From NCBI GenBank assembly GCA_964023275.1, contig OZ029914.1, positions 38,898,924 through 38,962,923 on the forward strand: DNA of 64,000 nt, in the 5' to 3' direction. Origin of the DNA: Norana najaformis (Eukaryota; Annelida; Clitellata; Crassiclitellata; Hormogastridae). Every line of letters starts with the position of its first letter. The first letter of the stretch is position 1. A program made the translations under genes and the position numbers. This document shows positions 18,501-60,252 of the stretch, piece by piece. The notes beneath the pieces are model-generated. The model saw nothing but the letters and a program-made list of their open reading frames with translations, had not been told where the DNA came from and ran no database searches.

Positions 18501-21500
18501 CCTTACGTCATTACTTGAATGCATGCATAACTTAAAATCTAGACGTGCTGGGCAGATTCTGACTTCATATTTGGAATCAGCACATTTGAATCAATATAAG
18601 GCACATGCATCACTTTCAGTAGCAAAATCGTTGTGATCCAGTGTTATTCATACATGTTCTTCGTTGTTTAGTCTCTCGCAATTACTATTGGTAAAGATCA
18701 GACACTTCCTTTTAGAAGGTATTGCAATTGACCAAAACTTCTCAGCCATAATAATGTATATTTAACGAAAATGTTCTGTGAGCATCTTAATGCGTTTATG
18801 TGCAGATTGTGGCAATACAAACTACTCTGAAGTTACAGCAACAATTTCATCTCCAAGTTATCAGAGTCCCATGTTGTATGCTAATGGCATAAATTGTACC
18901 TATTTCATCTCAGTCCCATCTGCATATAAAGCCGTTCTTAATTTTCTGGCATTCACTACCGAGTCACCGAATGATTGGCTAACAGTAAGTATACATATAT
19001 TTAAACATGAAATGCAGACATACGGAGTTATAATGAATTTTTGACCACTCGAATAAATCGAACAATGATGCATCAGACACCTGAATAAAGGCCCTCATGC
19101 AAGCCCATAATCCTTGCAACGGGCAGTTAGTACCATAATTCTTTTAAAATCTAAAATATGGAGAGCCTTTTTATCCAACTGGAGTTCATATCTAAAATCG
19201 ACGTTTTATGGCGACAGCTTCAGGTTGCTAGAGTCTGAGCAGAAACTCGTTACTGACAAATCAAGGCCTCTTTTACTGATGAAGGTTAGTTAATCTTTGT
19301 TTGTTAGGTTTCATGCGCCAGTGGAGAAGCTTTTAACTGGACACGTTTCTACGGTTCAGTTTTGCCCTCAGATTTGATCATTCCGTCTTGCAACCTTGTA
19401 AGAATATGGTTTTATGCAGACTACAATGTGACCGATACAAGTTTTAGTCTCTCTTACAACATTATAACAGGTAAATATTTGTTCAGCATCAATATTTTTA
19501 ACTGTTACTTTATTTCTTTACTTTCTGCATTATTTTATATGCAGCTAATACAGATTCCAGTCTCACATATGTGATTGGAATAATATGTTGAAGAATAAGC
19601 AAGACAGAGATCGACTCAACTGATGAGAAACCAAAGCAGGTCACGCGTGTCAAAGTCGATGACTGTTGTTTATGGGATTCAGGTTGCTGCACCTCTGACT
19701 GGAAGTCAGAATCCCTTGTTCTCTCCAGCTCCTCGCTTTGTTAGAGTCTTCTTTTTTGGCCAATTTGACTTATGTTTGCTGTGTTTATTCACCTTCCGCT
19801 CTTTCTTTCCATTCTGTCTTAACTACTTGTGTCTTTTGTGTTCGATCAATGTGGCTTGTTCTCGCTTTCTTTGTTCGGAAACTGCTTACTGCCACTGAAT
19901 AGCATTAGTTCAGTGAGTGACAGTGTAAGAGGTTTACTACATTGACTTCCACTCTGGTATCGTTATGATACCAGTTTCTCAACTTCGCATTTCAGCTGAT
20001 CTTTCAAAATCAAGAGTCTCAACTCAATGTTTTTATCTCTTAGTTTTTCAATTATGCTTAATAAATGTCTGTCTGAGACGTTCTGTATCCAGTTTCTAAT
20101 TCTCTATCAGTCTTTTGCTGAGCATTGTTTCCATCTTACTTATTTAAGTAACCTTATGCGACGACATGTTTTCCAAGCTTAAGCGCAAAACAACCTCACC
20201 ATCTTAGCCCACCAATTACAAGCACATGATGCATATTTGCATCCCCGGCACGTTCAGGTCGTTCCAAAACTTGCTGACTCGACACTTCTACATAATGTAG
20301 ACAAAAATCACGCTAATGAATGAAGTTTGTGATATTTAAATGAATCCACACTTGCATTTTTATATACCCATACTTACGGAAATAAAAATTATATATTGTA
20401 ACGACGTTGTACTGAATTCTGTTTTTAAAAACTTCGCTTCTTTTAACTCAGGAAGTTTCAACTAATCGTGTACACTGTTCAGACTAAATTCATCTCAATC
20501 TAGGCACAGCTTCTATTCAAAATCTAGCCAGAAACGTTCATTATTCATACATGTTCATCGTTGTTTAGTCTCTCGCAATTACTATTGGTAAAGATCAGAC
20601 ACTTCCTTTTAGAAGGTATAGCAATTGACCAAAATTTCTCAGCCGTAACAATGTATATTTAACGAAAATGTTCTTTGAGCATCTTAATGCGTTTATGTGC
20701 AGATTGTGGCAATACAAACTACTCTGAAGTTACAGGAACAATTTCATCTCCAAGTTATCAGAATCCCATGTTGCATGCGAATGGCATAAATTGTACCTAT
20801 TTCATCTCAGTCCCGTCTACATATAAAGCCGTTCTTAATTTTCTGGCATTCACTACCGAGTCACCGAATGATTGGCTAGCAGTAAGTGTACATATATTTA
20901 AACATTAAATGCAGACATATGATGCATTCAGCATGGAGTTATAATGAATTTTTGACCACTCGAATAAATCGAACAATGATGCATCAGACACCTGACTTAT
21001 AGCCATCTCATGCAAGCCCATTATCCTTGCAACGGGCAGTTAGTACCATAATTCTTTTAAAATCTAAAATATGGAGGGCCTTTTTTATCCAACTGGAGTT
21101 CATATCTAAAATCGACGTTTTATGGCGACAGCTTCAGGTTGCTAGAGTCTGAGCAGAAACTCGTTACTGACAAATCAAGGCCTCTTTTACTGATGAAGGT
21201 TAGTTAATCTTTGTTTGTTAGGTTTCATGCGCCAGTGGAGAAGCTTTTAACTGGACACGTTTCTACGGTTCAGTTTTGCCCTCAGATTTGACCATTCCGT
21301 CTTGCAACCTTGTAAGAATATGGTTTCATGCAGACTACAATGTGACCAATACAAGTTTTAGTCTCTCTTACAATATTATACCAGGTAAATATTTGTTCAG
21401 CATCAATATTGTTTTGCTTATACGTCTGTTTTAATTGACCTTATTTAGTAATTTGTATGTTACATTTTATATATGCAATTAATGTTAAAAGACATTGTGA

Positions 21501-24500: not shown

Positions 24501-27500
24501 CAGAGCGTTTTAGTGGTCGAATATCCATATGATAAACTGCATGCCAGCTGAGTCTGGCCAACCACCCAGCGTGCTTGTAGCAAGTCAACAATCCGCTAGC
24601 TCATCACTACCGTCAACGTTCTTAAGCTTGCCGTAAACCCGCTGACTCAATGACCCGATATCGCCAACGTCGTATCACGTGATCGACACGTGTTATTTTT
24701 CACACTTGTGCTTTCCAAAACTTACTGACTTATAAGACATATGCAGTTTCTGCGAAGCAATTAGGTTAACATAGAAGTTATATACAGGATGCACGGTTGT
24801 GCATATTTGCCGTGTAGCCGCTAAGTATGTTAGAGCCATTTGTTTTAAAAAGGTGAAGGTTAAATACTTGTTTTCTAGTCTCTCTTAAGACTCATCGAAA
24901 GCGGGGTCCAGTGATTGTCGGATTATTCGACTGAGATTCAGACATCATCACTTCATGGCAACGGCATTTTTATCTTTTATCAGCAATGGTATGCAGCTTA
25001 TACGAAAGTTACTTGATCACCTGAAACTTTTGTTAAAATTTATAAAACCCAACAATCATTTCTGTCAAGGTTCAGTTCTAGATCTGATTCTAGTAACCAT
25101 AGGCCTAATAATGAACTGATGTTATTGAAACTGATTTAATAAGTTTTACTGATTTAAACTAATGAGGAAAGTTTGTCGCAGCATCGTTTGCAAATGAAAA
25201 CCCGAATACAAGTTCGAATGTTCTTTTGGCATCAGTACTTGGAAGTCTTCTGGGTCTATGTATTCTTTTCGTGATATTGCTGATCGTCCGTACTACTCGC
25301 AAAACCGGGCAAGGCAAGTTTTATCATTATTCTTCATCTATAGAAACATTTTGAGTTGTTGCGCTGCTGGAAAGAATATTTTAATTGAGATCAATAGCCG
25401 ATTTTCTATCCTACAACCTTGCGCTATTGCAAATTTGGTACGATTGTTCTGTTCTGTTTGTTCCCCCTTGTGAAATTCGTTGTTGAACTTTTTTGCACAA
25501 TTTTTGCCCTGTAAAGATAGCATACTTATTTTTCTTATTTGCGATACCAACGGTTTATCTTTTTTTTATCTTATTCGTGAGTACCAAGAAAATGACAAAA
25601 TATAGACTTGTCTGCAGTGTATCCTGCATGGTATGCAGGATACACTGAATCCGTGTATCCTGGGTAATTTCTGGCAGGTGCGTCCACGTTGCGCAGGGTA
25701 GCGCCTGTCAGTGTCTAAATTCTCGAGGTACAGCGAAACCGCCTGCCAAAGGTTACGGTTGACAATCTCAGCGAGTAAAGAGGGAGGAAGACCTTCAAGA
25801 AGAAACAATGGTCCTCGCCACCGTATGCTATGCTATTTCAACGATAGACACACCCGAATAGAGCTTGACCACATCTTTCTTAAATATAGGCGGAGCACCA
25901 AAACGAGCAGCGTTTGCAGATGGCGTCGGAGAGAGATTTGCTAACTTGGAAATGGATGATAGCATCTGACAGACTTTCCGCGAGAACTTCATGGATGCAG
26001 CCTAAAAACATATGTTCTTAGCAACGACATTGAAGAGAGAATGGATCATATGTTACATAAATCAGAAGAAACGTCAGAAGAGACTGGATGTGAAGATGGG
26101 TGAATATCAACTACTGCAGAAAGAGTGCAGGGCCTCCGTGCGACGTAGCCCCCAGGAATCGTGGCGGAAACTGCCCTACCTAACGAGCATCTTCGGAACC
26201 CCTTCTCTAGCTTCAGGAGGCTGGTCTACGTCGTGCTGCATGTCTCTTGACCGATCAGAGACCACTTTTTGAGCCACATGGACCAAATGATCGAGCAGTG
26301 GACGGAGTACTATTCAAACCTCCTTAACCGCACTCCGCCAGTAAGAGAGTGTACTTTCATCGGGTCATATGTAGAGGCTGATGGGAGCAGTGAATAGCAG
26401 TTGCTAGGGTGCTTAGAGCCTTGATTTTCTGCGCCCGAATAGATAGAAGAGACCCATCACTCGAACAAGGCACACATGGTCCTTGGCGATGGACATAAAC
26501 TTTACGAAGCTAACATGGGGTTCCATGCTGACCGCAGGGGAACCCAGGGACACATGACAGAGTCGTGGAAAAGCCAGTGCTCTAGAAAGAGGCACGCCGC
26601 TGCTGATGATGATGATGACGAAGGAAATGAAGACGAGTCTAAACACGCTTGTTGTTTAATAAGCTTCGTGTTTTTGTCAGATTTCATGCTATAAGCCACC
26701 ATATTGTATTGGCACATTAGAAGTGTGGTGTTGGACCTATATATCTGGATTCGTATCTGCTTATTTAATCTGTTCAATTATCTATATATGTATGAAATCA
26801 TAAGTCTATTCGGTTGCCATATTTTGGTTTGATTTTCACCTATTATATTAAGGATCTAAAACAAATATTTATAAAATATTATTTATTCTCCAAGGCACAT
26901 GGATTCTAGCAAAAAATAGTTGAAATTATTATTAATAATTAAATATTAATAAAATTACAAATCTCAATTAAAAGAAACAAAATCACAAATAAACTGTGAA
27001 ATAAATATCCACAATAATTGGGGTACACGTCTGCACAACAGTTTGCAGTTTAAATGAACAATTACTGTGGATTCTAGGGTACATACCTAGTGTGGAAGAA
27101 CACGGCACATTACTGAGCATCGCATTACTACACAAATCCTCTGCAGTAATGATGCGCAAAGGTGTACATTAAAAAGTTTCACACAACTCACCAGAACTGT
27201 AGATTATAATTCCACAGAACTGTTTGCAAGTGACAAGTCTGTGAGAAAGTTAACTTTTAAAAATTGGTTATTGTTTAAAGTTTAAAAATTGTTTATTATT
27301 GGCTAATAGAAAATATTTGGTATGTCAATGCTAAGTAGATTGCTGAAAAACTTTCTTTCTGATAGCAGAAAGAGATCATGTTTTGCCTGAAATTCAGCTG
27401 AATACCGTTGCACCGTCTGATCAACATGGAATCGACCCAACTGAAGCCAACTCTGGAGAAACAGGATATGAAGGTCTTCGATCGTTGGGTTGTTATGAGC

Positions 27501-31382: not shown

Positions 31383-31536
31383 GAACAACGACGAAGCTTG
31401 TCAATTCACTATCTGCTGCTAACAATCCAGAAGAGGGTCGCTTAGAAATCTATTACGGAGGTGAATGGGGAACAGTTTGCAGCAATGGCTTTACAGATGC
31501 CAATGCAAAAGTAGTGTGTGCCAGCCTCGGTTTCGG
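31383..31536 (+). CDS. Gene 2 SRCR domain A, first half
   Basis: 154 nt, acceptor TACAG|GAACAA, phase 1 in and phase 2 out (TTC GG|GTATTT). Reads [16 protein letters not shown] and ends VVCASLGFG. Confidence 0.85.
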
Positions 31537-34500
31537 GTATTTTGGATTATTTGATTCCGTCTAATGACACTAGCTCGCTTGATGATGTGATCAGTATTTT
31601 TCATTATATATTTTAATTTTATTGCTTCTGTAAATATAAACTATAACTAATCGACGAGTTGCTGTAGTCTTACAACTCTGCCAATTGTTGCTGGAAAAAG
31701 ATTTCCTGTTTACAGGTAAAAAGCAAGCAACTGAAGAGGCTGGAATTGGTCTATATTGAATCATCGGCCACATACCATTCTCAAACAGTGCATTTCTAGC
31801 GAAGGTTATTTTGTAAAAATGACCCTCGACATATCGTATGCACTCCTTGGCTGCAGCAGCTCAATGTCGAGAACGTTTTAGGTAGGAGCATTCCACATTC
31901 TACTCGGCCTCACCCAGCCTCACCTCGTATACCTGTCATGCCAATCAATCTGCTCGTGTCTCGTTGCTTGCATATAATTAATCACAGCATTCTACACGGT
32001 CTACCACCGAGATCCTATTCACGCACTTAGTCCCAAGAGCTATTTAGAATCATAAGGAATTCGTGGCTTTACTACTTCTTGAATGAATGGACAGTGATGG
32101 TGGCCATGAACTCTGATTGCACGGCGTAGATACCCGTTCCATTCTTTGTCCCACAGAAACCAGTTCTCGATCGGGTTCTTTGCATCCTGTACACAAGATA
32201 CCTAACTCAAAACATCATACTCTGGGAGCGCTGTTCCACAAGTAGAAACTAAGCCGATGAAACTCAACTGTGCTGCAATTGCCATTTTTCTAACGCGATT
32301 GCCCTTTGTCTTTTCTAAACGGGTTATTGTGACCGAAGTACAGGCATGGATGTCTTCTAGTCGGCTTCGGTTGAATGCGGCAAAGACGAAACACATCTGG
32401 TTGAGCACATGCCTCGCTCGGTCAAAGGCTGATGAAGAGTCGATGAAGTCGATAAACTTATCAGGATCAACAACTTGTCATTCGTTTGGATGGAGAACCT
32501 TCTGTGACTTACGATGTAAATTCCGTCTGCAGATCCTGCTTCCATCAGCTGAGTCAGACACGGGTCGTATGATCATAGCCATCGCTTAATGCTGCAATTA
32601 TTCGCTCATCCTGGCTCTTTTTATTACGGCAGTTCAAACCATGCAGGCTGGCCAACGTTATGGTAGTATCAGCTCTAGTCCGTGATCTATGGTGCCCATG
32701 CTTGCATGCCTAAATTGTCGCACATTTTGGAATGTTTGTCAAAACTCTATAGTGGTTGTTGCACAACAAAAAGCATTCAATATTCTTCTACTTGGAAGGG
32801 ATCCAACTGTCAAAACCTCGTCAGCATACAACATCAAGCTTTATGTTCCAGAATCAAATGAACCATTTAGGCGACTTTTTTGCCTGCGGGGATATGCAGG
32901 AGCTGCGAATCCGTTTATCAACTTGTAACCATCGTGCCTTCTTCTGTTCTGAATCTTTATCTTCGAACATTCTTCCAGTGCAAACAGTGTTGTAGAAAAT
33001 AGATGCTCAGTGATTTTGTTTTTGAAATTAGACAAAATGGAACATTTATCAGAAATCGTCATGGCAATGGAACTGGCCAAATCTGGCTGGATGACGTCAA
33101 TTGCAGTGGAACTGAACAGAGTCTAGATGTGTGTTCACAAAACTCTTTGGGTGTTCATGATTGCGGTCACCACAAAGATGTGTCGATTAGATGTGGTAAG
33201 TTTAATTCAAAACATTTCAGTTAGTATCTGCACCGATTATACAATTACTATTATTATTGTGAATAAATTATGTGAAAATCTATTACAGAAATCGAAGCAC
33301 TACGAATGTGCGTTTCTGCCATACGATCATGAGGAGAATAAAGATCTAAAGACAAGAGATTTCGGCTGAGATTTATATACAATCTTCTAATAAATGTAAA
33401 TGATGGCCTTTGTAGGAGACACTCTAGACTTTGCCGTGCGGTTAATCGATCATTTCGGTTACAATTCAAAGGAAGGACGACTGGAGATCTACTATTCAGG
33501 TATCTGGGAACAGTGTGTGATAACAACTTTACAAATGTCAGCGCAAGAGTGGCATGTGCCAGTCTTGGATTTGGGTAAGTTCCCTGCTCGTATGGTTATG
33601 CGTTATTAGATGTGTTGTTGACTCAAGTAAAAAAATTTATGATCTGGCTGCTTCATTGTGAATTAAAACGTACGAATTAGACTAATAATCTTAGGACTTG
33701 GAAAATTACAATGAAAATCAGTCCTCATTTTGGTAGACGTTCTATGTAGTATATTTGCCCCCTTGTTCAACATAAAATATGCATTGCAGGATGAATTTAG
33801 CTTCATTATTGGTAAGCTCGATTGACAGTCTACTTCCTACAAAGTTGCATCGACCATGCTATAAAAGATCTCTTAATGTTGCTGAACAGATTGAAGCGGA
33901 TACGCTCAATCATAGGCTCAGACTGTTACATGATCTCGGTAAGATAGTCCAAGACAATTTCGTGGATCCTGGTGAATGACTCTGTTGCAAAGTAAGGTTA
34001 ATGTTGCTTCTAGTTTATATGTATCATGTACACAGCTTTTTTACTGTTTTTTTAAATTTAAACTTAGATACGTTGGTTCAGTTTTTGGAAATCTTTACGG
34101 AGGTGGAACAGATGCAATATGGCTGGATGACGTGAAATGCAATGGAACAGAAAGTAGCATAGAGCAGTGCATCCATCGAGGGTGGGGCGTGCACAATTGC
34201 GGTCAAGATGAAGCTGTTTCAATTAGTTGTGGTAGGTATATGTTACAACTCTAACCCAACCGATATCGCGTCTTACTGGTACTCTACACTGTGTCCGGAA
34301 AAATTCCAAGGCTCTAAAATATGAATGAAAAAACTATAGTAGATAATAATCAATTAAAAAATTTAAAAACCTTTTTGATCCGTACATAATTACCAACAAA
34401 ATTCTTTGTAATTTATTAACGGCCCCCGTTTAAAATTACGTCACAGTGACGTATTTGAATTTTATATTTTGTTAATGCTTGGGATGAACTTGATCAACTG

Positions 34501-37500: not shown

Positions 37501-40500
37501 CAATCATCTCATACATAGTGTCTATCTCTTTCTCTTCATGTCTTGTGGTGGGGATGTACACTTGTATTATTACAATGTCCACTGGCTTCACTTGTGTTGT
37601 TACCTTGAGCATCCTGTCTCCCTGTCTTTCAATCTTGGTACACATTTGGCAATCTTCTCCTTCAGCAATATGGCAACGCCGTTTTGACTCTTTCCTCCTC
37701 CAGAGTGTATTATTCTTACTCCTTCGCTTATGAAATCTCCATCCTCCCTTCATCTCACCTCTGAAAGTACCATTATATCCAAGCCTGTCCTTCTCATCTC
37801 TTCAATCAAATTTGCAAGCATTCCAGGTCTTTACATTTTTCGGACATTCCATATCCCTACGTGAATTATCTCTTTTTGCAAGGATTTTGCGGTTTTCGGT
37901 CGAAGAGCCTTGTTCCCTCCCTTGCCGAACGCGACTCTCTCCGTCGAAGACTGGTTCGAATCGTTCACGTTGTTATCGTGCTTTTTAGTGACCTCGTCAT
38001 TCGTGTACACGGGATTTGTAGAGAGGTGGTCTCCCGTTGCTTTCCTCTCGGTGTTTTAGGGAGACACCATCTCCTAGCGTTGATGAGCTCCATCATCCGT
38101 CCTTCAGGCACATCACCCTTGGGCACTCGCATATACCGGTGAGGACACGGTCGTCCAACAAGCACTCTGATCAAGAACAGGATGATGATGTGAAGGTAGC
38201 GTGGTGGGCAGTTGAACAGTAGAGGCTTTTGGAGACTCTTAGTGTCCCATTTTCCTTTCCTCTGATCTTTAGGAATGTAATTCAAACTGGCATCTACACT
38301 GGATAATGATTTTGATTGGGATTCAACTGAGGCAGTGAATTATTGACACATTGTGTACTATGATGTCGCCTCTATATTCGTCATCAGATTAGATTAAACA
38401 AGATTTACCAGTTTAAAGTTTGAGGCGCAGGGACAGATGCTGTAATGTTTTAACAGCGTCATTGTTAAAAACAGAGATACATAACCCCACACTTTTTAAT
38501 CTCTCTAGCGCGAGTCTGGGCGCACTGAAGTACTACTAACGCTCGTGTCCGTGAGGTTAAATTTGCTGACTTTCTGGCTGTTGCCCTGACACTGGCTTGA
38601 TTTTGGTGAGCCATCGGCTGATGCCCTGTGCATTAGACACCGACGTCATAGAGGTTGATAAGTAGTAGTAGTAGTAGTAGTGGTAGTGGTATACTACTTG
38701 GTAGTAGTAGAAGTGGTAGTAGTGGGAGTAGTAGTAGTAGTAGTAGTAGTAATGATGATGATGATGATGATGATGATGATAATAATAATACGGTTTTCTT
38801 AGCCCATTGAACCGTTGCTTAACGTAATAAGAATTAAATCGAATAACGCATTACTTGTTTTCAAAATCAGACCCGCAGTGCCCCTGTCTTACAGTCATTC
38901 ATAGAGAAACATGTGTTTTAGGGACAACTGTACGACTTGTCAATTCCACCGAAAATCCCAACGAAGGACGATTGGAGATTTACTACGCGGGTGTTTGGGG
39001 AACTGTTTGCAACGACGGTTTCAATGATATCAGTGCAGGAGTTGCTTGTAAAAGTCTCGGTTTTGGGTAATTTCACATTCTTATACATCTTGATAACCCC
39101 ATAAACAATCTTTCAAAAATGTTGTAAATATGTCTTTTCAATATAACGTCATCTCTTGCGTTTGATAATTTCTGTGACCGGCTCTGACAAAATGAGTCTT
39201 TAGTCAGATATTTCTCAATCTCAAATTTTTATTTTATTAAGTAATGCATTCAATTTTGTGTAAAATCAGAAAACTTTTAATGTATTTTCCAAGTGATGCC
39301 AAAGATAATATCAATTTGAAATCATGACCATGAAATTTATAAGTATGAGAAAAATGCTTTTTGCGGTAGGATGCGGTTTCTTCTTCGCTATCAATAACTC
39401 TTTAATAAAGACTTTTTCTCTAGCGCCTAGGAGAAGATTTGAATCAAATATTTGAAATGGGCAGATAGCTAACTTTCAAAAGATTGTAATGTGCCTGTTA
39501 TTCGGCACATGATTGCCAAATTTGTTGATGTGCTCGTCTGCGTCGAAAAAGTATCCGAAAGTGAAATCAGATGTCTTCCCGTATCTTGATGACTAGCGGT
39601 GCTAGAAATTTAGCGACTTAGTCTTCACGCAAATAAGCCTACTCTAGCTGATGGGTCGTAAATCGTGCGACAAATCGAGATGTGCTTTCGGGTTTTCGTA
39701 TTGTAGTTAACAATGTACAAAGTATTTTAAGCGACCTTTACAAAGCAACATTAAGATTATGTGATTCGCTTCGGTCAGTTACTAGGTGTGATAAAGCTGT
39801 TACGAGCTGTACGTGTCATTTAATCTTCGGCTCTTCTGATGTTGTTTGCTTGTCTGTAACTTCAGCTAAATCCTTTCCATCCAACTTCCTCCTCTTTCAA
39901 CTTCTCTCATTCCTTTCTCTTTTTCAGCTACAACTTTCAGTCAACCATCTCTACACTCACTCTGCAATCAAACCTCTGTCCGTCATTCACGTCTCTCTCT
40001 CTCTCTTTCTCTTTCTCTCTTTCTCTTTCTCTCTTTCTCTTTCTCTCTCTCTCTCTCCCGGTCTGACTTTATGACCCTAGTCCATTCTACTCGTCTCCGT
40101 CTCTCAGTTTCATTTTATAACAGACGGCAAATTAGTTAAGCTGCTATTAATGATACTGCGCCCTTGCATAATCATAATATAGTTCGAACCTGTTTAAAGA
40201 AATATTTATACTTCAAAGAAGCTTAATATTAACATCTGCACTTATTTTTAAAATTAATATGATCGATGTCCTGCCCGCAGTTCACTATAGAGTATTTTCA
40301 ACGGAAAGCGCCTTCCTGATCGTTTCTTGAAACTTGCGTTGTGCGAATATTAAGACTCAGATTGTCAGAGCTGGTCATATTTATTTGGCGATTCCTCCCC
40401 TGACTAAATTTCACTACAAAATATCTAAACTGTGAACGTTATATCGGGTTGCTTTGTCAGCATGTCTGAAAGAGAATTTGCAAAGAAAATGTTCACGAGT

Positions 40501-43500
40501 CAATAGTTTATCGATTTGCTGTGCACACGCGTATCACGTGCAGGCTGGCACGCTCCAAATACATGGTAGGAATGGTGTCATTGGGTGGAAGAGCCGTGCG
40601 GGCAGGCCGGCTGACGTCAACAGCAATTACTGGCTTAGTTAGCTGCATCGGTAAGTGCGTACGCCAAGAGCCTCTGTGCGTGAGGATGCCAGGTTCGCGT
40701 CCCGGTCATGGCTTATTTCAGAAATTTAAAATCTCGGGCTAGCACGGTCCGTGCAAGGAGACCGTAAATGGCGTGGCGCCCATTCAAACGGGCAGCGGTG
40801 TTGAAGGTGAAGGATCTCATTGCAACATGAGCAGGGTCGAGGTCATACGGTCGCTATATAAAACCTATACATTTACATTTACATTTATGGTTGACGCGTA
40901 TTTTATCATATGGGCGCTCGCGCCGGTTACATTGTGATGATTCAGCGGGTTTTTGGAAACCCGACTGAGTAGGTAACATGATTGCGTAATAACAGAAGGC
41001 TTGTCTAAACCAGTCTATGCTAGTCTGCTCTCTTGGCGAAAAATGGCCTATGCAAGACTAGAATGCGATTATTTTGTAAAAAGAGTTCGAAGATTTGCTA
41101 CACTTGTCTGGCATGTGCTAAGTTAAGAGTTTTGATTTTAAAATGTCATTGACAGATTCGTGCGTTTAGAAACTGTGATGGCTCAAAATGCTTCTTATCA
41201 CTGAACTGTTCGTTTTAATTATAATTTTCAAAATCAAAGACTGTGTGTCTTTACTTGAGTTTACGGAACGCAACGAATTCGGAAAGTCGACGATCCATAG
41301 CCCAATGGATGACAACTACTGGAAGATTGTCGACATAAACCTTCAATATATCATAGACTTTCTGACAAAGTACATCTATTTCGATTTTTTATTTTTTTTC
41401 AGGATTAAATGCCGAGTCCAATTTAATCCAGATAAGTCGCTATATGTTGAACATATAGTTTTCTTAGCATTTACCCAAAGCAGTAGCTCAATAAGAACAC
41501 AAAATCATTATGAATAAATCTGTTATTTGTTAAATTAGTGATGATGGGACTTTCATTGGGTATCGTTATGGAAGTGGAACAGGACAAATTTGGTTGGATG
41601 ACGTCGTATGCAACGGAACTGAATCAAGACTCAACCAGTGCTCTGCACGGCCACTGGGCGTTCACAATTGCAGTCACAATCAAGACGTATCAATCAGTTG
41701 TGATTGGCATTCAGGTTTGAACTCTGTCTCCAATCCTAGAAATAGAGCATAGTAGGTAACCTACCGATAACTTCAAGGCGCTTTGTAAATGCTACGAATA
41801 AATATGCGGATGAATGAGTGAACAAGCGAATGAAGGAATGAACGAACGAACGAACGGACGGACGATAGTGCGAGCAAGCTAATGAACGAATAAGAAACGA
41901 CTTATGCGAATACCACTTTATCTCTCTGAGAAAGTTGGACGTCCATCGTGAATCGCCGGCGACAAGTGAAAGTGAAGACCCCTCGTCTAGAAAGTCGACT
42001 TTCAAGCATTACCAAGCCTAAGGATCAAGATCGGGGAGCATGCCGACTAGGGAGGTCTGTTAGATTAAGTAGGTCTATTAGATTAAGTTTAGAATAGATA
42101 ATACTCAATTCGGTGCTGGCTTAAGTACTTGACTACGATAGGGTTATGATTAATATATTTCATTAAGTATTTGCTGAACTGTGGATTGATTGCGTATGGA
42201 TATAAAATTTTTCTATATATAACTGATTGGCGACTTATATTCCAACACTATATCTACGTAAATCACTCCGGTCCGTTAATAAAAGTGAAGATCTACTGTC
42301 AGATGAGACAGCAGCACAGTCCGCGTTGAGACGAAGAATTTGCCGAAATGACCGATTAGGCAAACATGTTACCAACATAGTCCCAGATAAGTGCAGACTT
42401 AATGCTTCTCAGTTAAATTCTTAGCACAATTTTGACAAGTTTTTAACAACAGCCCATCTCCAGTGAACCAAACTAAGCCTAACAGAGTAAGGCATTTTGG
42501 CTAGCAGTGTGTAGCAAGCGATGTGGAAAAGCAAAATTTGGATCTCAAATTGTCACAGTTGTCGGGCTGGGCGTACATACTTATATTCAAAATGTTCTAT
42601 GATCATCTGATCATTTCTTTTTCGTTTCTTTGCAGACTGTGGTAAAACGTCCTATTCTGGACTTAGTGGAAGAATATCATCTCCAAATTTTACGACACCT
42701 CATAGAGATGGCCTAATTTGTATCTATTCCATCGCAGTCCCTGCTCGACATAAAGCCGTTGTTACCTTCCTGTCAATACACTCGAGGTTAAGACATCTGG
42801 TAAAAGTAAGTATTAAAATATATATATTGAAGATGTGACGTATTTTCTGTATGTATTTCCAATGATTGACGGCCACTTCACTGTTTCTTACAGGGCTTGC
42901 AGTTCCAATCTGTATTAGTTTAGTACATTGACTGCTACACTTCGATTGTAAATACAAAATTGTAAATCCTTATCTATTTGGTCTATTAACTCACCAAATG
43001 ATCCAAGAATAGACAACATGTCAAAATTTAAAACCAGATTACAGTTACAATTAACTTATTTAACCTTAAAGGCAGCCATAATGACATGGAACGTCAATGT
43101 TTGATTTTGAATCTTGTGATCCAAAAAGGAGTAGTGGCCGATTTAAACTTCTGCTTGTAGATAGCTCCTAAGTACCTGGGAGTTTTATAATGTGTTTTAA
43201 ATAAACTTTGGGTGGCCAATTTGAGGTACTTTGGCTGTATCAGACTTATAGACCTCTTATGAACACCCGTCCCATTTACAGCGGAATGTACCTAATACTT
43301 TGTAGGTTGCTTTTATTAGTTGCAATACATTTCGTTGACATTCAGAACGACAACGCCTTTTTCTGTGAACTGATTTTTATTTCTTGTTTTAATACAGTTG
43401 TTATGGCGGATTCTTGTGATTATTATAATTACTATGTTATGACATAAATCCGCTACTGCACTGCATTTATCAAGTCTTTAAATTGGAAAGAAACCAAAGA

Positions 43501-46500
43501 ACGGAAAGGAGAAAACTATTTCTAGAAGAACTTGGATTGCTGCTGATTTGACACAGCAGTGGTTAAGAGGTCTTTTTACTTTATGCTGAAACATTCTGCT
43601 GACAGCATATTATAACTTATATATGAAATCAAACTAAATATTTGTAAGATACAGTAGCTCTTGTGTGAGGGCTATTTAAAATCCAAAAGTATGACCTTCA
43701 GAACTATTAGATATGTAGATTTTTGAGGGTTCTTGGTTGAACCGCTGCATTGGCCAACTTCCATACGCATTGATTTCGTTTGACGAGTGTAATCTTTGCT
43801 TGTTAGGTTTCGTGTGCGCATGGAAAAGAATTTGAAACGCACAAATTATCCCATTCAGTTTTTCCCTTATCTTTGACCATTACATCGTGCACCCTTGTAA
43901 GAATTCGGTTTTACGTATATTTTCTTTGGGGCGAAGAAGGTTTCAGTCTCGGCTATGATATTATTCCAGGTAAATTTTTGTTCAGTATCATTGTTTTTAA
44001 CTGTTACCTTTTTTCTTTTCTTTCTGCATTATTTTATTTGCACCTAAATAGGGATTTCAGTCTCACATAAATGGATTGGGATAATATGTCAAGTATAAGC
44101 AAAGACAGAGATCGACTAAATTGATGAGAAACCAAAGTAGTTTACCCGCGTTACAGTCAATGACTGTTGTAATTGTAATTGTAATGTTAGATTTATAAAG
44201 CGCCTCCTAGAGAACAAACTCAACAAGATCGCTCCAGACTAGAACAAGTAAAATCACTGTTAAACAGTACAATCTTCAGACGCCTGCAAAACCCTAAAAG
44301 GGGAAGAGAGAGAGGAGGAGCTCTAGTCGCAAATCTCGAGAGAGGCGGTTCCAACAGGTGGGACCGACTTACGCAAAACTTCTGGACTGGACAACGGCAG
44401 TTCGCATGTGGGGGACAAACCAGAGATCATGGGTGACCGAGCGGAGGGTGCTACGGCCCGGTAACGAGGAGACCAAAGTGCAAAATTCAATGAGGCAAAG
44501 GCGAGCAGAGCCAGCAGCACAGTTGCGCACAAGAGTGAGGATCTTAAAATGAACAGGCTGCTGGATGGGAAGCCAATGAAGAGTGTCTCGAATATAGGAC
44601 GAGATATGACGGTATCTGGGAATGCACCCAATGAGACAAGCAGCTGAGTTCAGGACAGACTGAAGCTTAGCTGTTTTTGCTAGGGATAGGCCGGTGAAGT
44701 TGGAATTACCCTAGTGAACCCTGGTGCAAATGAGGGTATGGACCAGAGTCGAGAGCGTGAGAAGAGAGGATAGTGAAAAACGGCGAATAGTGCGAAGAAC
44801 TTGGTCTTGCTGCAGTTCAATCAGAGGTGGATGGAAGACATGCAGCAGTCGAGAACAGTCAAGGATCCCTGGACAATGGCGAGGGTATCCTCCGCCAGAC
44901 CATGGGCATAATCCTGGGTGTCATCTGCGTACTGTAGGACAGAAACAGTCAGAGGGAGGAGGGTCCGAACTAAATCAGAGGTATATAGAATATAGAGGAG
45001 AAGAGCCAGGACGGAGCCATGGGGGAGACCGTACAAGAACGGGACCAGAGAGACCGCGAGGGCCCGAAGACATTCGATTGAAGGGGATCTGAGAGGATTG
45101 ACTAAAACAAGACGAGGGCAGAACCAGTACTTCAATGGATATTTCCAAACGCTTCAAAAGAATGGAGTGATCAACGGTGTCAAACGCACCACTAACATCG
45201 TCGAGGGCCAGAGGATAGACTGCTTAGAGTCGACAGCGATGAATATGTCGGCAAGAAGGCGGGTTACAAGTGATTCGGATGAGTGATATTTCCTGGAATC
45301 ATAGACTGTTGTCCATGGCATTCAGGTTCCTTCCCGTGTAACTGGAAGTCACCTTGTCCTTTCCAGCTCTTCGGGTTGTTACAGTCTTCCTTGTCCGGTC
45401 AATTTGGCTTACTTAGCTGTCTCTTTTCGCCTTCCGCGCTTTCTTTCCTTTATATCTCAACTTGCTCCTGTCTTATGTTTGGTCAATGTGGCTTGTTTCA
45501 GCCTTCTTAGTTAGGAAACTGCTTATTGCCACTCAGTGGCATTTGTTCAGTGACTGACCGTGTAAAAGGTTTACTCCATTGACTTCCACTCTGGTTTCGC
45601 TATGCTTCCAGCTTTCTCAGCTTCGCCTTTCAACTAATCTTTCAAAATCAAGCTCCAATTATTTATCTCTCAGTTTTCCAGATATGTTTAATAAATACCT
45701 GGCTGAACCGTTCTGCACCCAGTTTATGGATATCTATCCGTCTTTTGCTGAGAATTGTTTCCATAGTACTTACTTAAGAAACCTTATGCAACGACATGTT
45801 TTGCAACCTAAGCGCAAAACACTGTCGACACCAATCCCGCGTCTTAGCACACCAATTACAAGCATGTGACACATATTTGCTACCCAGGGACGCTTGGGAC
45901 GTTCCAAAACTTGATGAATCGTCACTTCTACGTTGCGAAAACAAATGTCATGCTTAAACATAATGTATGGGTCATTTAAATGAATCTACACTTGTATAAT
46001 TATATTTACCCAAACTTACGGAAATAAAAATTATATATTGTAAAGACCTTGTACTGAATACTGGTTTAAAAAGTTTGTTTCTTCTTTTAATTCATAAAGT
46101 TTCAACTAATTGGGTACATCGTTCAGACTGTATTCATCTAAATCTAGACACAACTTCTAGTCAAAATCAAGTCAGAAACGCTCATTGTTCATACATGTTC
46201 ATTGTTGTTTAGTCTCTCGCAATAGCCATTAGTATACATCAGGCAATTCCTTTTAGAAGGTTAAAGCAATTCAATTATCCAAAATTTATCAGCCGTAACA
46301 ATGTATACATGTATTTAACGAAAATGTTCTGCGAGCATCTGGTCATTTTCTTACGTTTTTGTTCAGATTGTGGCAAAACGAATTACTCTGAAAGTAAAGA
46401 AACAATTTCATCTCCAAGTTATCAGAATCCCATGTCGTATGCGAATGGCATAAATTGTACCTATTTCATCTCAGTCCCATCCACAAATATAGTCGTTGTT

Positions 46501-49500
46501 ACCTTTCTGGCATTCACTACCGAGTCACCAAATGATTTGCTAACAGTAAGTATTGAAACATCAAATACAAATATGAATTGCATTCAGCATGCGTTTCTAA
46601 TGGTTTATGGCCACTCGAATAAATCTAACAATGGTGCAGCACACAGACTTATGGCCATCTCATGCAAGCCCATATTCCATGCCACGAGCAGTTAGTACGA
46701 CAACCCTTTGTTTGATGGACTGATTTTTCATACTTCTATGCGTTAACTGTGGCAAATTACTGTAAGTATTATAATTCGCAATCCTAATCGTATTTGCACA
46801 TTTATATAACATCTGCTCAAGAAAACTAGTCAGAAGTGTTCTCGACCTGACAAAACAACACAATAATCAGACAGAATGCTTTCAACCGCTGCCAAAATAG
46901 AGGTAGAGAAAGGACAAGAAGCCTCATGTCGTAGGACGCGTGGCAGACCGTTCCAGGGTGAAAGGCCAACAACGGTGAAGCTACTGTGTTGCAATGCAAA
47001 GTACGGAACCGAGGGACAAAAACCGGAACACCATGTGCTTCAGAGTGAAGAGATCTACGGCCAGAGACAAACGACAACGATTACTCTAATGTCACCTGTA
47101 AATCCTCTACTGGCGTGCAACACCAATTCTCTAAGTTTTGAGGAGACCAAACTGTAAAAGATAAAATTGTACTTGGAAGAACTGAGATCGTTATTGACAA
47201 AAATTCCTCGTGGTTAAGAGGTCGTTTACTCCAGTGAAGCTGGATCATTCAATAAAAGTGGCCATTATTAAACTATCTCTCTTTGACCAAAGAGTGGATA
47301 ATGCATCCAGTGTGACTTATGAAAGCTTTCAGCAACAAACCAAAACAATGGACGAGAAACCAAACCAGGACGCTGGCATATTTTCAGAAAGGTGTCATCA
47401 AAAATACAAAAATGACTTTTCAAGGAAAACGAAGTATAAAGGCGAAACATACGATAGATGGACGTTCTGGAGAGATTTGAAACTTGAAACTATTATGTAC
47501 TATTTCTGTTATTTATGAAGCCAAAATAATGTTCTTCAGTTTCACTAAACTGAGGCTCGTTTAGCACATCATAAGTTTAATGAAAGTCGCTGAAACTATT
47601 AACAAAATTATGCAGGTATAACGTGCAAAGAAATACAGGCTACCCTATTTTGAATATCACACATTTTGCAATGTTTACCTAGCGCTACCTTTGAACCGCG
47701 ATATAGCAAGGAAACTTACGTAGCTAAATCTACCATATGGAAAGCTTGTTTTACTCAACTTCAGTTCATATATAAAATCGATGTTTTATAACGAAATCTT
47801 TAGGTTTCTATGGTCTGAGCAGTAACTTGTCACTGATAAATCTTTTTTCGCAGCCAAAATCACTTTCAATCATGAAGGTTTATCATCTTTGTTTGTTAGG
47901 TTTCATGTGCAGATGGAGAAGCCTTTAAATCGCAAAACTACTCCAATTCAGTTTTGCCCTCGGCTTTGGCCATTTCATCTTGCAAACTTGTAAGAATATG
48001 GTTTCATGCAGATTACAATGTGACCAGTACAAGTTTCAATCTTTCTTATGAAATGGTTACAGGTAAATATTTGTTAAGCTTGCTTATATGTTTGTTTATA
48101 ATTTACATTATTTAATTGCTTCTATCCTACATTTCATTATATGGAATTAATGTGAAGAAACTTACAGGCTACTTAAAGAATCACTGTGTCGACAAACTTC
48201 GAAATTGTATTTCCATCGAGCTACGAATCTTAGAGTCTCCCGATTTCTAGCATCACATTAACGAGCATTTTTTTATAATATGCAATCAAAACAGTTCAAC
48301 CAAATCCATACTTCTGTGGCCAACATCTAAACTTCTATAGGCAGGAATCTATAAATTGCTAATATCAGCTCTATTCAGAGTCATTTTTGACGGTAACAAA
48401 TGAACTGAATTCTCAACAAGCTACCTATAAACCATGTTTAAACACTGCCCTTGCAGTGTAGTCTCCGTCTCAGTATATAGATTAAAATCTTTCGAGTCAG
48501 CAAAACATAACCATGCATCAATTGGCTTACCGCAGACCACTAGTGATTGAACGCACATAAAATACACTGCATGCCAGTCGACGTCAGACCAACCAGCCAG
48601 CGTGCTTGTGGCAAGTCGGCAACACACTAACTCATCATGAACGTCAAAGGTCTTAGTTAAGTGACACCTGCTGGCTTAGGTTTGCCGAAAACGCGCTGAC
48701 TCAACTCTGCTATCGCCAACATCATATCACGTGATCGAAAAGTGTTATTTGGCACACTTGCATTTTCCAAATCCTATAGACTCATATGTTGAGTCAGCAA
48801 GGAAATCACGTTCATACACAGGTTTCATGGTTTGTAGCTTTAAGTAGGTTTTAGGAAACGGAGTATTTTTACCACTGCTAAAGCCATTTATTTAAAAAAA
48901 GGTGAAGGTTAAATACTTGTTTATAAGTCTCTATAGAAATACATCGGAGGCGTTGTCCAAATATTGTCGGAATATTCGGCTCAGGTTCAGACATCATCAA
49001 ATCGATGGAAGACATTTTTATCGTTTGTCAGCAATAGTAGTCAGCCTGTACGAAAGTTGCTTCATCAATTGTTACAATTTGTAAAACCCAAGAATAATTT
49101 CTCTCAGAGTTATGTTCTATATCTGATTTTAGTGCCAACAATAATGATTTTACTTTAATGAAAATGACTTAAAAAGTTTAAATGATTTAAGACTAATAAG
49201 AAAAGTTTGTTGCAGCATCGTTTGCAACTGAAAATCCGAATTCAAGTACGAATGTTCTTGTGATATCAATACTTGCAAGTCTACTGGGCTTATGTATTCT
49301 TTTCGTCCTTATTACTCGCAAAACCAGACACGGCAAGTTTATCGCTAACATATTCTTCATCTATGTAAACACTTGAATTGTTTGTGCCGGTCGAAAGATA
49401 CTCAATCCGACGGCTTTGCACTATTGCAAGTTTGGTACGACTTTTTTTGTTAATGCTTCTCGTGAAATTCCTTATTGAATTTTTGTAGAATTATTATCCT

Positions 49501-51280
49501 GTAAAGATAATATACTTGTGACATTATTGTTATTATTATATGCGGTAACAACTGTTTGCCCTTTCAAAAATCTTATTCGTGAGTACCAACAAATTGACAA
49601 AATATGGACCTGTCTGCTTGGCAAAAATCTCTATACAGAATACATTGAATCGGAGTAATTTTCAGCAGGTGCGTCCACTTTGCGGAGAGTAGCGCCTGTC
49701 AGTGACTAAATCCTATAGGATCCCAGTTCCTCGATGTATATCGAGGCTGCATGCCAAAATTTACTGGTGAAGACCTAAGCGGCAAAAGGGAGCGGAAGTG
49801 CTTCTAGGAGGCATGCCGCATATCTCTTGTCCAAATGATCGTGCAGTGGAAGGAGTACAATTAAAACCGCCCTCCGTTGTCTGTCCCCTGTGGTGGGAAA
49901 CAAGGTAGAACTACTGGGAGAGTTCACGTACCTCGTGTCGAATGTCGAGGCTGATGGCAGCAGAGAATAGCAGTTGCAAGGGCGCTTCGAGTCTTGGCTT
50001 TGGGGCTCCCGAATAGATAAAAGAGACCTTTCGATTGACCGAGGGACATATGGACTCGGACGATGGAGGCAACGCTAACAGTGTGCTCCATACATGTAGA
50101 ACCTGCAGACAAACAGAAGGATGCATGGCAGAGTCGTGGAAAAGCCAACGTTTTAGAAAAATGCACTGCGCTGCTGGTGATGATAATGGTGACGAAGATG
50201 AGACGACGCAAGCTTGATGATGTCAATAATAAGCATCGTTTTTGTCAGATTCCATGCTATAAGCCACTATCCTTGTAGTGGCACATTAGAAGTCTCATGT
50301 TAGATCTATATATCTGTATTCGTATCAGCTTTCTTAATCTGTTCAAGTGTCTATTTATGTACAAAATCATAAGTCCATTGAGTTGACATATATTGGATCG
50401 ATTCTTATCTATTATACCAAAGATCTAATATAAATATTTCGAAATATAATTTATTTCTCCAAGACGTCGCAGCACCGGTGGTATATTCTTAAAAAATAAT
50501 AATAAGTAATACCGATTTTGCAGCATTAAGTATTAACAACTAATAAAATTACAAATCACAATAACTGGAAATAAAATCACAATTACACTGTGAAATAAAA
50601 ATGCTCAATAACTGTGATGTACCTCTTCAAAACAGTTTGCAGTTTAAATTCACAATTACTGTGCATTCTAAGGTACATACCTAGTGTGGAAGAACACAGC
50701 ACATCACTCTGCATCGCAGAACTATACATTACTGTGCAGTCATGATGCATAATAGTGTGCAGTGAAAAGTTTCACAAAACTCACCAGAACTGTGGATTAT
50801 AATTCCACAGTACTGTGTTCAAGTGACAGCTACGCACCACTGTGAAGTGAAGTGTATAAGAAAACTTCGCAACTTTTAAGAGTCTACAAATTCTATGGAG
50901 GCGTTATAATATTTGAAAAAAGTGCCTGCTAATGTTAAAGGTGTAAAAATTGTTTGCTGTTGGCTAATAGAAAGTATTTTGTATGCCAGTGCTAAGTAGA
51001 TTGTTGAAAAATTTTATTTCTGATATCAGAAAGAGACAGTGTTTTGCCTGGAATTCACCTGAATACTTTTACACATTCTGGGCAACATGGAATCGATCCA
51101 ACTGAAGGCAAAACTGGAGAAGCTGGATATGAAGGTCTGCGATCGTCGGGTATCTACGAACATTACGATGAAATAACTGCTAATGACTATCAAACGATAA
51201 ACGAGTACAGCGAAAACCCCAGCCTCAGACAACAAAACGACCCCCACTACGACGAAATCGATCCAACTGATTGCATTTAA
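31383..51280 (+). CDS. Gene 2: SRCR–CUB transmembrane receptor, 5' end not found (span)
   Basis: Paralogue of gene 1 with three SRCR and two CUB domains, a membrane span and an 83-residue tail. Exons: 31383-31536, 33032-33195, 33416-33574, 34068-34231, 38922-39066, 41539-41702 (or 41714), 42636-42805, 43807-43969, 46367-46545, 47900-48062, 49216-49332, 51030-51280. It would give about 664-668 residues without the signal peptide. Two problems cast doubt on it: one base is missing from a G run in exon 33416-33574, shifting the frame, and the donor after 41702 is AT instead of GT. Domain, TM and tail reading frames are otherwise intact, so it is either a recent pseudogene, a gene that skips the bad exons, or affected by a sequencing error. 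The predicted role is the same as gene 1, with an ITAM-like tail. Confidence 0.7.
31537..33031 (+). other. Intron inside SRCR domain A of gene 2
   Basis: Mostly a decayed LINE (31840-32640). The remainder has no recognised feature. Confidence 0.6.
31840..32640 (+). mobile_element. Decayed LINE RT fragment, CR1/L2-like
   Basis: Broken frames read PVLDRVLCILYT (compare the LINE GSVLGPLLFLLYT), ADETQL (YADDTQL box) and WMSSSRLRLNAAKTKHIWL (the WMxxNRLxLNxxKTxFIWF motif). Order and direction are those of a plus-strand non-LTR RT. Many breaks indicate age. Confidence 0.75.
33032..33195 (+). CDS. Gene 2 SRCR domain A, second half
   Basis: 164 nt, phase 2 in and phase 1 out (TGT G|GTAAGT). Reads GNGTGQIWLDDVNCSGTE and ends DVSIRCG, with four cysteines. 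Confidence 0.9.
33416..33574 (+). pseudogene. Gene 2 SRCR domain B, first half, frameshifted
   Basis: 159 nt where the family pattern requires 160. The conserved WGTVC codons, normally TGGGGAACAGTGTGT, appear as TGGGAACAGTGTGT: one G is missing near 33510. The codons on both sides read as normal SRCR ([12 protein letters not shown] before, VACASLGFG after in the shifted frame). Acceptor and donor (TTTGG|GTAAGT) are good. It is either a recent null mutation or a homopolymer sequencing error. Confidence 0.85.
34068..34231 (+). CDS. Gene 2 SRCR domain B, second half
   Basis: 164 nt, phase 2 in and phase 1 out (TGT G|GTAGGT). Reads YGGGTDAIWLDDVKCNGTE and ends AVSISCG. Intact. Confidence 0.9.
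34287..34697 (+). mobile_element. Tc1/mariner-type deletion derivative
   Basis: 411 bp with terminal inverted repeats CACTGTGTCCGGAAAAATTC and its near-inverse, paired over about 27 bp, flanked by TA (34285-34286 and 34698-34699). It keeps only the very C-terminus of a transposase, at 34474-34587 (DQLVVDAAVSQWRVRLEAC, then GGHFEH). A DELDQLV...QWRxRLxxC...GGHFEH tail is typical of IS630/Tc1-mariner proteins. Non-autonomous. Confidence 0.9.
35090..35580 (+). mobile_element. LINE RT fragment, L2/CR1-like, with internal deletion
   Basis: Reads LVLPDLSVIFGTVDHGILFHLLEH (the LLDLSAAFDTVDH box), then GLGLRWIASYLQPGTQSV. After a gap come the C-terminal WNS-type residues. Plus strand. Confidence 0.75.
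35605..38290 (-). mobile_element. RTE-like LINE, nearly full length but decayed
   Basis: Minus strand, 5' end near 38290. Visible parts in order are an APE endonuclease (GIWNVRKM, then LIEEMRRTGLDIMVLSEVR, then AIVMGDRNAAVGE and GLGKGNSRG at about 37860-37330), a linker with KNNKSEGLDNIPAEMLK (37050), and a reverse transcriptase (36911-36414: HRTISLPTHASKIILRIRI, FRKSRGTRDA, VDYEKTFDRVDW). The C-terminal region follows and the 3' tail is GAAGAAGAAGA. The RT catalytic YADD region is deleted or scrambled. The fragments at 9512 and 54545 have a similar 3' end. Confidence 0.8.
38661..38790. repeat. Trinucleotide microsatellite (TAG)n then (GAT)n then (AAT)n
   Basis: About 130 bp of imperfect trinucleotide runs, changing motif twice, just upstream of an SRCR exon. 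Confidence 0.95.
38922..39066 (+). CDS. Gene 2 SRCR domain C, first half
   Basis: 145 nt, phase 1 in and phase 2 out (TTT GG|GTAATT). Reads [19 protein letters not shown] and ends VACKSLGFG. Shorter than the 166 nt of gene 1 at the N-terminal edge only. Confidence 0.9.
39992..40057. repeat. CT/TTTCTC microsatellite
   Basis: Uninterrupted C/T run, mainly CTCTCT and TTTCTC units. It causes a long Ser/Leu/Phe open frame that is not a gene. Confidence 0.95.
40600..40888 (+). mobile_element. tRNA-derived SINE
   Basis: TGGCTTAGTTAGCTGCATCGG near 40630 fits a tRNA A box and GGTTCGCGTCCCG near 40690 fits a B box at about the right distance. A non-tRNA body follows, ending CGCTATATAAAACC and an (ACATTT)n tail at 40858-40886. 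The end resembles the 3' end of the LINE at 44170-45303 (CGCTTTATAAATC then an ATTACA-type tail). The left boundary is uncertain. Confidence 0.8.
41539..41702 (+). CDS. Gene 2 SRCR domain C, second half, with damaged donor
   Basis: 164 nt to the usual junction. Reads YGSGTGQIWLDDVVCNGTE and ends DVSISC. At the position where gene 1 has TGTG|GTTGGT this gene has TGTG|ATTGGC, so the GT donor is lost. A CAG|GTTTGA donor 12 nt downstream (exon end 41714) keeps phase 1 and would add four residues (DWHS). Use of that site is inferred. Confidence 0.8.
41775..42635 (+). other. Intron between SRCR C and CUB 1 of gene 2
   Basis: Contains a LINE/SINE-type tail (AAGGCGCTTTGTAAATGC) with a GAAC repeat at 41803-41870, then blocks shared with 13080-13840 of gene 1. 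No exon. Confidence 0.6.
42636..42805 (+). CDS. Gene 2 CUB domain 1, first half
   Basis: 170 nt, phase 1 in and phase 0 out (AAA|GTAAGT). Reads DCGKTSYSGLSGRISSPNF and then LICIYSIAVPARHKA, keeping both cysteines, unlike gene 1. Confidence 0.9.
43807..43969 (+). CDS. Gene 2 CUB domain 1, second half
   Basis: 163 nt, phase 0 in and phase 1 out (CCA G|GTAAAT). Reads VSCAHGKEF, ITSCTLVRIRF and ends FSLGYDIIPG. Confidence 0.9.
44170..45303 (-). mobile_element. 5'-truncated LINE, L2/CR1-like
   Basis: Minus strand. Reads a TVDH-type box, YGLPHGSVLALLLYILYTSDLV and YADDTQ (the RT catalytic box, near 44930), then HWLPIQQPVHFKILTLV and a WNRLSRDL end. The 3' end is GCGCTTTATAAATC followed by ATTACA repeats. 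A target duplication GACTGTTG lies at 44162-44169 and 45304-45311. The gene 1 spacers show the empty site (GATGACTGTTGTTTATGG). Confidence 0.9.
45312..46366. repeat. Remainder of the gene 2 CUB spacer
   Basis: Diverged homologue of 15380-16254 and 19670-20702 of gene 1. Some frames resemble an old LINE C-terminus but they are too decayed to be sure. Confidence 0.6.
46367..46545 (+). CDS. Gene 2 CUB domain 2, first half
   Basis: 179 nt, phase 1 in and phase 0 out (ACA|GTAAGT). Reads DCGKTNYSESKETISSPSY and GINCTYFISVPS. Confidence 0.9.
46546..47899 (+). other. Intron inside CUB domain 2 of gene 2
   Basis: 46870-47520 holds two open stretches (about 93 and 102 codons) of unknown origin that have no counterpart in the gene 1 CUB2/CUB3 introns. 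47140-47225 resembles the CUB1 intron at 14680. The last 150 bp match 19150-19307 of gene 1. Confidence 0.5.
47900..48062 (+). CDS. Gene 2 CUB domain 2, second half
   Basis: 163 nt, phase 0 in and phase 1 out (ACA G|GTAAAT). Reads VSCADGEAF, ISSCKLVRIWFHADYN and ends FNLSYEMVTG. Confidence 0.9.
49216..49332 (+). CDS. Gene 2 transmembrane exon
   Basis: 117 nt, phase 1 in and phase 1 out. Reads SFATENPNSST then about 21 hydrophobic residues (NVLVISILASLLGLCILFV) and TRKTRH. It is 15 nt shorter than gene 1 at the end of the span. The donor is CACG|GCAAGT, a GC donor at the same place as in gene 1. Confidence 0.85.
49333..51029 (+). other. Last intron of gene 2 (GC–AG)
   Basis: Starts GCAAGT and ends ATATCAG|AAAGAG. 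Carries the decayed LINE remnant at 49720-50230 and the segment shared with gene 1 at 50500-50850. Confidence 0.7.
49720..50230 (+). mobile_element. Decayed LINE fragment in the last intron of gene 2
   Basis: Reads KVELLGEFTYLVSNVEADGS, the FxYLGSxIxxDG motif that follows the RT domain in many LINEs. Homologous to part of 25700-26650 with different deletions. Confidence 0.6.
51030..51280 (+). CDS. Gene 2 cytoplasmic tail and stop, ITAM-like
   Basis: 251 nt, TAA at 51278-51280. Six tyrosines occur in GYEGL, IYEH, HYDEI, DYQTI, EYSEN and HYDEI. YEGL and the first YDEI are separated by eight residues, which fits the ITAM form YxxL/I-x6-12-YxxL/I. DYQTI and the last YDEI are further YxxI motifs. 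Kinase recruitment is inferred. Confidence 0.9.
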
Positions 51281-60170: not shown

Positions 60171-60252
60171 ATGACGACAGCAAAGGAACAAATTGTTTAT
60201 GTGTTCGTGCACTTGTTGCTAGTTTTGCAGAACAATATAACACCAGCACAAG
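60171..60252 (+). CDS. Gene 3 exon 1: signal peptide
   Basis: Reads [19 protein letters not shown] and ends TPAQ|G with donor G|GTACGT. Same length as gene 1 exon 1. Confidence 0.85.

Follow-up and report, generated by a model that had tools for sequence, protein, structure and literature searches.

A stretch of 64,000 nucleotides from Norana najaformis (GenBank assembly GCA_964023275.1, contig OZ029914.1, positions 38,898,924 to 38,962,923 of the forward strand), referred to below as the window, contained two receptor genes, designated gene 1 and gene 2. Self-comparison showed that they were tandem paralogous units; identity over most aligned blocks, intronic sequence counted in, was 68-80%. 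Each gene is predicted to encode a type I membrane receptor with an extracellular part of SRCR and CUB domains, one uncharged transmembrane (TM) helix and a short tail with tyrosine motifs. The gene 2 tail carried a match to the immunoreceptor tyrosine-based activation motif (ITAM), and the remarkable feature of the tails was the number of their YxxL/I motifs, not the spacing of these motifs.

Tyrosine motifs of the two cytoplasmic tails

The tail exon of gene 2 followed the acceptor TTCTGATATCAG/AAAGAG at 51030, and its stop codon ended at 51280; the encoded tail ended in GEAGYEGLRSSGIYEHYDEITANDYQTINEYSENPSLRQQNDPHYDEIDPTDCI. The tails of genes 1 and 2 were 83-84 residues long and 71% identical. 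The ITAM was defined as YxxL/I-x6-8-YxxL/I in a cytoplasmic tail. This pattern was present in gene 2, where the gap from YEGL to YDEI was exactly 8 residues, and was not found in the gene 1 tail, the wider spacing x6-12 included. The initial annotation had placed YxxL-x8-YxxI at 51030-51280 in the tail of an SRCR-CUB receptor; the motif was present, the coordinates were those of the predicted last coding exon, and phase-consistent exon chains placed both tails after a TM exon.

The second tyrosine of the pair had also been read as Asn in gene 1. The codon was indeed AAC (Asn) in gene 1 and TAC (Tyr) in gene 2, but of the six tyrosines in gene 2, two and not one were absent from gene 1, which had Asn at YDEI and Cys at YSEN. 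The difference that had been described as a motif broken in the neighboring gene was real, but two tails fit a loss in gene 1 as well as a gain in gene 2. The picture of one motif pair was incomplete: gene 2 had the further motifs YQTI and a C-terminal YDEI, and gene 1 kept YEGL, YQTI and YEEI. Three YxxL/I motifs (YEGL, YQTI and Y[D/E]EI) were thus common to both tails, and the fourth (YDEI) occurred in gene 2 only. Between the paralogs, no change was seen at the four +3 residues or at the tyrosines of the three common motifs (chance for seven given positions, 0.08).

Comparison with composition shuffles showed that YxxL/I motifs were enriched in gene 2 (four motifs, P 0.002) and in gene 1 (three motifs, P 0.010). 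Sites of the form Y[DE][DEN][ILVM], a Src-family SH2 site type, were found twice in gene 2 (P 0.0008) and once in gene 1 (P 0.04), and each tail was enriched in YxxPhi sites (P 0.005 and 0.016). Among shuffled 83-residue tails, 1.5% had a 6-8 spaced pair and 3.3% a 6-12 spaced pair; when an acidic residue at -3 was also demanded, the 6-8 spaced pair appeared in 0.3%. With four YxxL/I motifs placed randomly in 83 residues, the 6-8 pair had a P of 0.37, and the 6-12 pair arose in 69%. It was therefore the number of motifs that was surprising and not their spacing, because the counts were rare among shuffles while the spacing was common once four motifs were given. Among 120,636 six-frame residues of the window, the plain ITAM pattern occurred in 20 fragments (0.014 per 84 residues), some of them copies of one repeat.

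The motif scan detected no immunoreceptor tyrosine-based switch motif, NPxY, hemITAM-type pattern, YxN, acidic dileucine or YxxM in either tail. For the immunoreceptor tyrosine-based inhibition motif (ITIM), the pattern [SIVL]xYxx[ILV] in the tail was used; LLYEEI of gene 1 matched it (shuffle P 0.14), and the gene 2 tail had no match. In tblastn within the window only the two known tails were clear matches (next best E 2.0), with no clear third tail. Neither tail matched Pfam, and the gene 2 tail had no PDB match. Pattern searches of viral_contigs (13 stretches) and genome_contigs (58 stretches) confirmed no relative of the tail, a result of low weight as these sets contain few or no animal genomes.

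Gene models and the surrounding locus

Exons were located by Pfam, frame comparison and within-window tblastn, and splice sites were listed by matching phase (Table 1). Gene 1 was ordered as candidate signal exon, two SRCR domains, three CUB domains, TM and tail, with phase-compatible junctions; its six acceptor/donor variants were all free of internal stops and gave 709-718 codons including the stop. The exon-end phases of gene 2 were compatible along the chain SRCR a, (SRCR b), SRCR c, CUB1, CUB2, TM and tail.

Pfam PF00530 (SRCR) matched two stretches in each gene model (E 1.1e-51 and 1.5e-53). PF00431 (CUB) matched a single stretch, CUB2, in the model of gene 2, and the three CUB copies in that of gene 1 gave two matching stretches; CUB1 of gene 2 received no separate CUB stretch. 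An SRCR domain of group A is defined by being encoded on two exons and having six cysteines. Three of the four domains counted here had six cysteines and the fourth had eight, and each domain lay on two exons, in agreement with group A. The SRCR and CUB1 part of gene 2 matched 26 distinct PDB sequences, including CD163 (M130), CD5 antigen-like, MARCO, CD6 and DMBT1.

The best 19-residue TM windows of both genes had no charged residue; charge pairing with an adaptor chain would not be suggested because of this. The join from TM to tail was modelled in both paralogs from a GC donor, G/GCAAGT (25313 in gene 1, 49332 in gene 2), to the acceptor at 27369 or 51030. An alternative GT donor lay four bases on (AA/GTTTTA in gene 1, joined to 27373; AA/GTTTAT in gene 2, joined to 51034) and gave the same tail frame, and the tyrosine motifs were identical under either join.

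Table 1. Predicted exons and tail motifs of genes 1 and 2 (positions in the window)
Feature	Position	Strand	Remarks
Gene 1 candidate signal-peptide exon	3500..3581	+	copy at 60171-60266, 91% protein identity, starts next gene
Gene 1 ectodomain exons	4188..21384	+	2 SRCR, 3 CUB; introns carry mobile elements; phase-compatible junctions chosen
Gene 1 TM exon	25182..25313	+	modelled to donor CAAG/GCAAGT
Gene 1 cytoplasmic-tail exon	27369..27622	+	YEGL 27467, NDEI 27503, YQTI 27527, LLYEEI (YEEI 27590)
Gene 2 SRCR a, first exon	31383..31536	+	
Gene 2 SRCR a, second exon	33032..33195	+	
Gene 2 SRCR b, first exon	33416..33574	+	frameshift near 33507; domain halves match in different frames
Gene 2 SRCR b, second exon	34068..34231	+	open
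Gene 2 SRCR c, first exon	38922..39066	+	
Gene 2 SRCR c, second exon	41539..41714	+	
Gene 2 CUB1, first exon	42636..42805	+	20.7 bits, slightly below Pfam cut-off 21.4
Gene 2 CUB1, second exon	43807..43969	+	diverged; alone without Pfam match
Gene 2 CUB2, first exon	46367..46545	+	Pfam CUB 30.2 bits on containing frame
Gene 2 CUB2, second exon	47900..48062	+	
Gene 2 TM exon	49216..49332	+	VLVISILASLLGLCILFVLI, no charged residue inside
Gene 2 cytoplasmic-tail exon, predicted last coding	51030..51280	+	83 aa with split first codon; acceptor, open frame, stop
YEGL, first half of ITAM-like pair	51128..51139	+	common to genes 1 and 2
YDEI, second half of ITAM-like pair	51164..51175	+	NDEI in gene 1
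YQTI	51188..51199	+	present also in gene 1
YDEI, C-terminal copy	51248..51259	+	YEEI in gene 1

Around the two genes, a segmental duplication related 1-7280 to 57258-63971 at about 94% identity. The second duplicate carried the start of a third receptor gene, with its signal exon at 60171 and with SRCR exons located near 60877 and near 63162; the tail of this gene would fall beyond the window. Gene 1 had a tandem duplicate CUB (18806-19470 and 20703-21384, about 95% DNA identity); a third CUB of this kind was not found in gene 2. At 7418-7462 in gene 1, a short relic of the second half of an SRCR domain lay outside the model. Copies or parts of a single mobile element at 1-1082, 8268-10964 and 16248-18648 were 98-99.5% identical, the longer copies encoding PPLHIKLGLM-type proteins, and a diverged copy at 22113-23852 had an open frame of 579 aa on the + strand. 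Gene 1 introns contained three of these four. Scans for tRNAs and Rfam families yielded nothing; the SRCR-CUB exons and their introns point to animal DNA.

Constraint and interpretation of the tails

Starting from the observed motifs, paralogy and enrichment, we prefer to read both tails as multi-tyrosine SH2-docking and uptake tails of the CD5/CD6 or Draper kind, and would give this reading about an even chance. The YEGL-x8-YDEI spacing of gene 2 would then probably be incidental to a motif-rich tail and not a selected tandem-SH2 (Syk) site. Clustering by ligand would lead a Src-family kinase to phosphorylate several tail tyrosines; the phosphotyrosines, YDEI and YEEI resembling Src-family SH2 sites, would dock SH2 proteins individually, and such docking could link ligand binding to uptake.

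Nonsynonymous (dN) and synonymous (dS) changes between the two tails were estimated by the Nei-Gojobori method (NG86), and the whole tail gave dS 0.362, dN 0.170 and a ratio of 0.47. The lowest ratio was that of a 28-codon motif core (0.22); the other 54 tail codons gave 0.73, and the ratio was 0.78 for 311 codons pooled from six pairs of ectodomain and TM exons. The pooled set consisted of the second SRCR c exon, two CUB1 exons, two CUB2 exons and the TM exon, with SRCR a and exon 1 of SRCR c excluded; it used the first of the two CUB2-like copies of gene 1, and the second copy led to similar ratios. In the CUB1 exons dN exceeded dS, with ratios of 1.9 and 1.6 from small counts (42636-42805 and 43807-43969 vs 13842-14011 and 15014-15182; Fisher test of CUB1 vs tail, P 0.047). 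These ratios suggest that this ectodomain module changes fast or is under relaxed constraint. Within the tail, the stretch of 26 residues with the fewest changes, GYEGLRSSGIYEHYDEITANDYQTIN, had three differences between the paralogs, and one of these three variable positions was the second ITAM tyrosine. No excess keeping of tyrosines was seen between the two tails, because two of six tyrosine sites differed, compared with 24 of 83 residues overall.

Several points weigh against selected docking tails. The bootstrap range of the whole-tail ratio was 0.25-0.95, and the Fisher tests gave 0.10 for the core vs the rest of the tail, 0.08 for the core vs ectodomain plus TM and 0.47 for the whole tail vs ectodomain plus TM. 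The core had been picked after the alignment was viewed, and a window with as few differences as the least changed one appeared in 14% of shuffles. As DNA, the tail exon was hardly more conserved than the sequence next to it: its Jukes-Cantor distance was 0.200, that of the near upstream flank 0.234 and that of the near downstream flank 0.213. A longer stretch of the downstream side (600 vs 900 bases) aligned poorly, with a distance of 0.564. The comparison covered two tails, and the exon joins were predicted. A full-length protein may also be doubtful for gene 2, the gene with the ITAM match.

The last point leads to the reading of gene 2 as a pseudogene or degraded copy, with an ITAM match gained or kept without function, which we consider unlikely. 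The first SRCR b exon was judged to be frameshifted because its SRCR matches fell in two frames; as read, the exon pair brought 16 stops into the model, and a heuristic first-exon search near gene 2 found no counterpart of the signal exons at 3500 and 60171. However, the model without the SRCR b pair kept its frame with 0 internal stops, and the remaining modelled exons, the tail included, were open. The frameshift adjoined a GGG run and is possibly a sequence error. Gene 1, which has no ITAM match, had a complete open model.

The gene 2 tail could instead be a true ITAM in its own right, recruiting a Syk-family kinase, so that array members would signal differently, gene 1 being without it. 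The match was exact and canonical, with the acidic residue at -3 too (shuffle P 0.003), both ITAM-type motifs on invertebrate receptors and Syk-family kinases are known, and CD5, itself an SRCR receptor, has an ITAM-like motif. We nevertheless hold this reading to be quite improbable, given the chance level of the spacing among four motifs, the 20 pattern fragments in the window, and, in gene 2, the damaged frame and the failure to find a signal exon. The pair had been put forward as ITAM-like, with constraint on both tyrosines to be checked in an alignment of the tails; the second tyrosine was not kept in the only other tail available, and neither the variation of the tyrosine sites nor the x8 spacing bore out a constrained ITAM. 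Should the pair function as an ITAM, the receptor would be a scavenger receptor signalling through Syk-type kinases on its own, and duplicated neighbors would differ in signalling by one codon. Caution is needed, as chance alone gives the ITAM spacing to about one in three tails of this length that have four YxxL/I motifs; the locus is also a test case for the drift of tyrosine-motif tails in tandem receptor arrays.

The YxxL/I motifs may also serve an uptake receptor as signals for AP-2 type endocytosis and sorting, with no need of phosphorylation. The YxxPhi enrichment in both tails, the match of the SRCR ectodomain to CD163, MARCO and other scavenger receptors, and a variable tyrosine that is seemingly dispensable are in line with this. 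Acidic residues following the tyrosine favor SH2 sites over sorting sites, and those of YDEI, YEEI and YEGL look more SH2-like; we hold sorting signals to be a quite doubtful explanation as well. A nascent activating/inhibitory pair of the natural killer (NK) type, arising independently on a scavenger-receptor scaffold from point changes in one tail, is very improbable; the idea was based on the ITAM without an ITIM in gene 2, the ITIM-type LLYEEI without an ITAM in gene 1, and the similarity of the two SRCR-CUB ectodomains, in whose CUB1 exons dN exceeded dS.

Comparison with known receptors

The SRCR domains of CD5 and CD6 are of group B, WC1 is a vertebrate gamma-delta T-cell co-receptor with up to 11 SRCR domains and without CUB, and the Alr proteins of Hydractinia are immunoglobulin-type. 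CD5 and CD6 have no CUB domains, unlike genes 1 and 2. The oyster receptor CgIgIT2 and the Botryllus fuhc receptors are immunoglobulin-type, not SRCR-CUB, and Draper/MEGF10 differ from genes 1 and 2 in an EMI/EGF-type ectodomain and an NPxY motif, which neither tail here has.

ITAM-type motifs were reported for CgIgIT2 (PMC11999971), for Hydractinia Alr candidates, together with hemITAM in the fuhc receptors (PMC12065747), and for fly Draper (PMC5138034, PMC8092387). The first three resemble genes 1 and 2 as surface receptors with ITAM, ITIM or hemITAM-type motifs of their own (PMC11999971, PMC12065747). Invertebrate receptors bearing ITAMs are thus already published, and the view that such a motif would be notable here was weakened because of these reports and that of an ITAM-like motif in CD5, a vertebrate SRCR receptor (PMC8158487). 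The combination of an ITAM with an invertebrate SRCR receptor may be unreported so far, because none was among the matches listed for literature on SRCR with ITAM or tyrosine-based motifs, a weak negative as subscription papers lay mostly outside that literature.

The reading of the tails as multi-tyrosine docking tails has its closest counterparts among receptors with several tail tyrosines. The Draper tail is reported to have at least five phosphorylated residues, at least four of them outside its ITAM (PMC8092387), and the tails of CD5 and CD6 are described as SH2 hubs, with four tyrosines in CD5, three of them believed to be phosphorylated, and nine in CD6 (PMC6305463). CD5 and CD6 share with genes 1 and 2 an SRCR ectodomain, one TM helix and several SH2-docking tail tyrosines (PMC8158487, PMC6305463), the docking being predicted for genes 1 and 2; each CD5 SRCR domain is described as lying on one exon (PMC8158487), whereas two exons were found here. 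WC1, a bovine SRCR multigene family, is described as having tails that differ among members and tail tyrosine phosphorylation that is needed for signalling (PMC3511184), and resembles genes 1 and 2 as an SRCR multigene family with tails varying among its members (PMC3511184).

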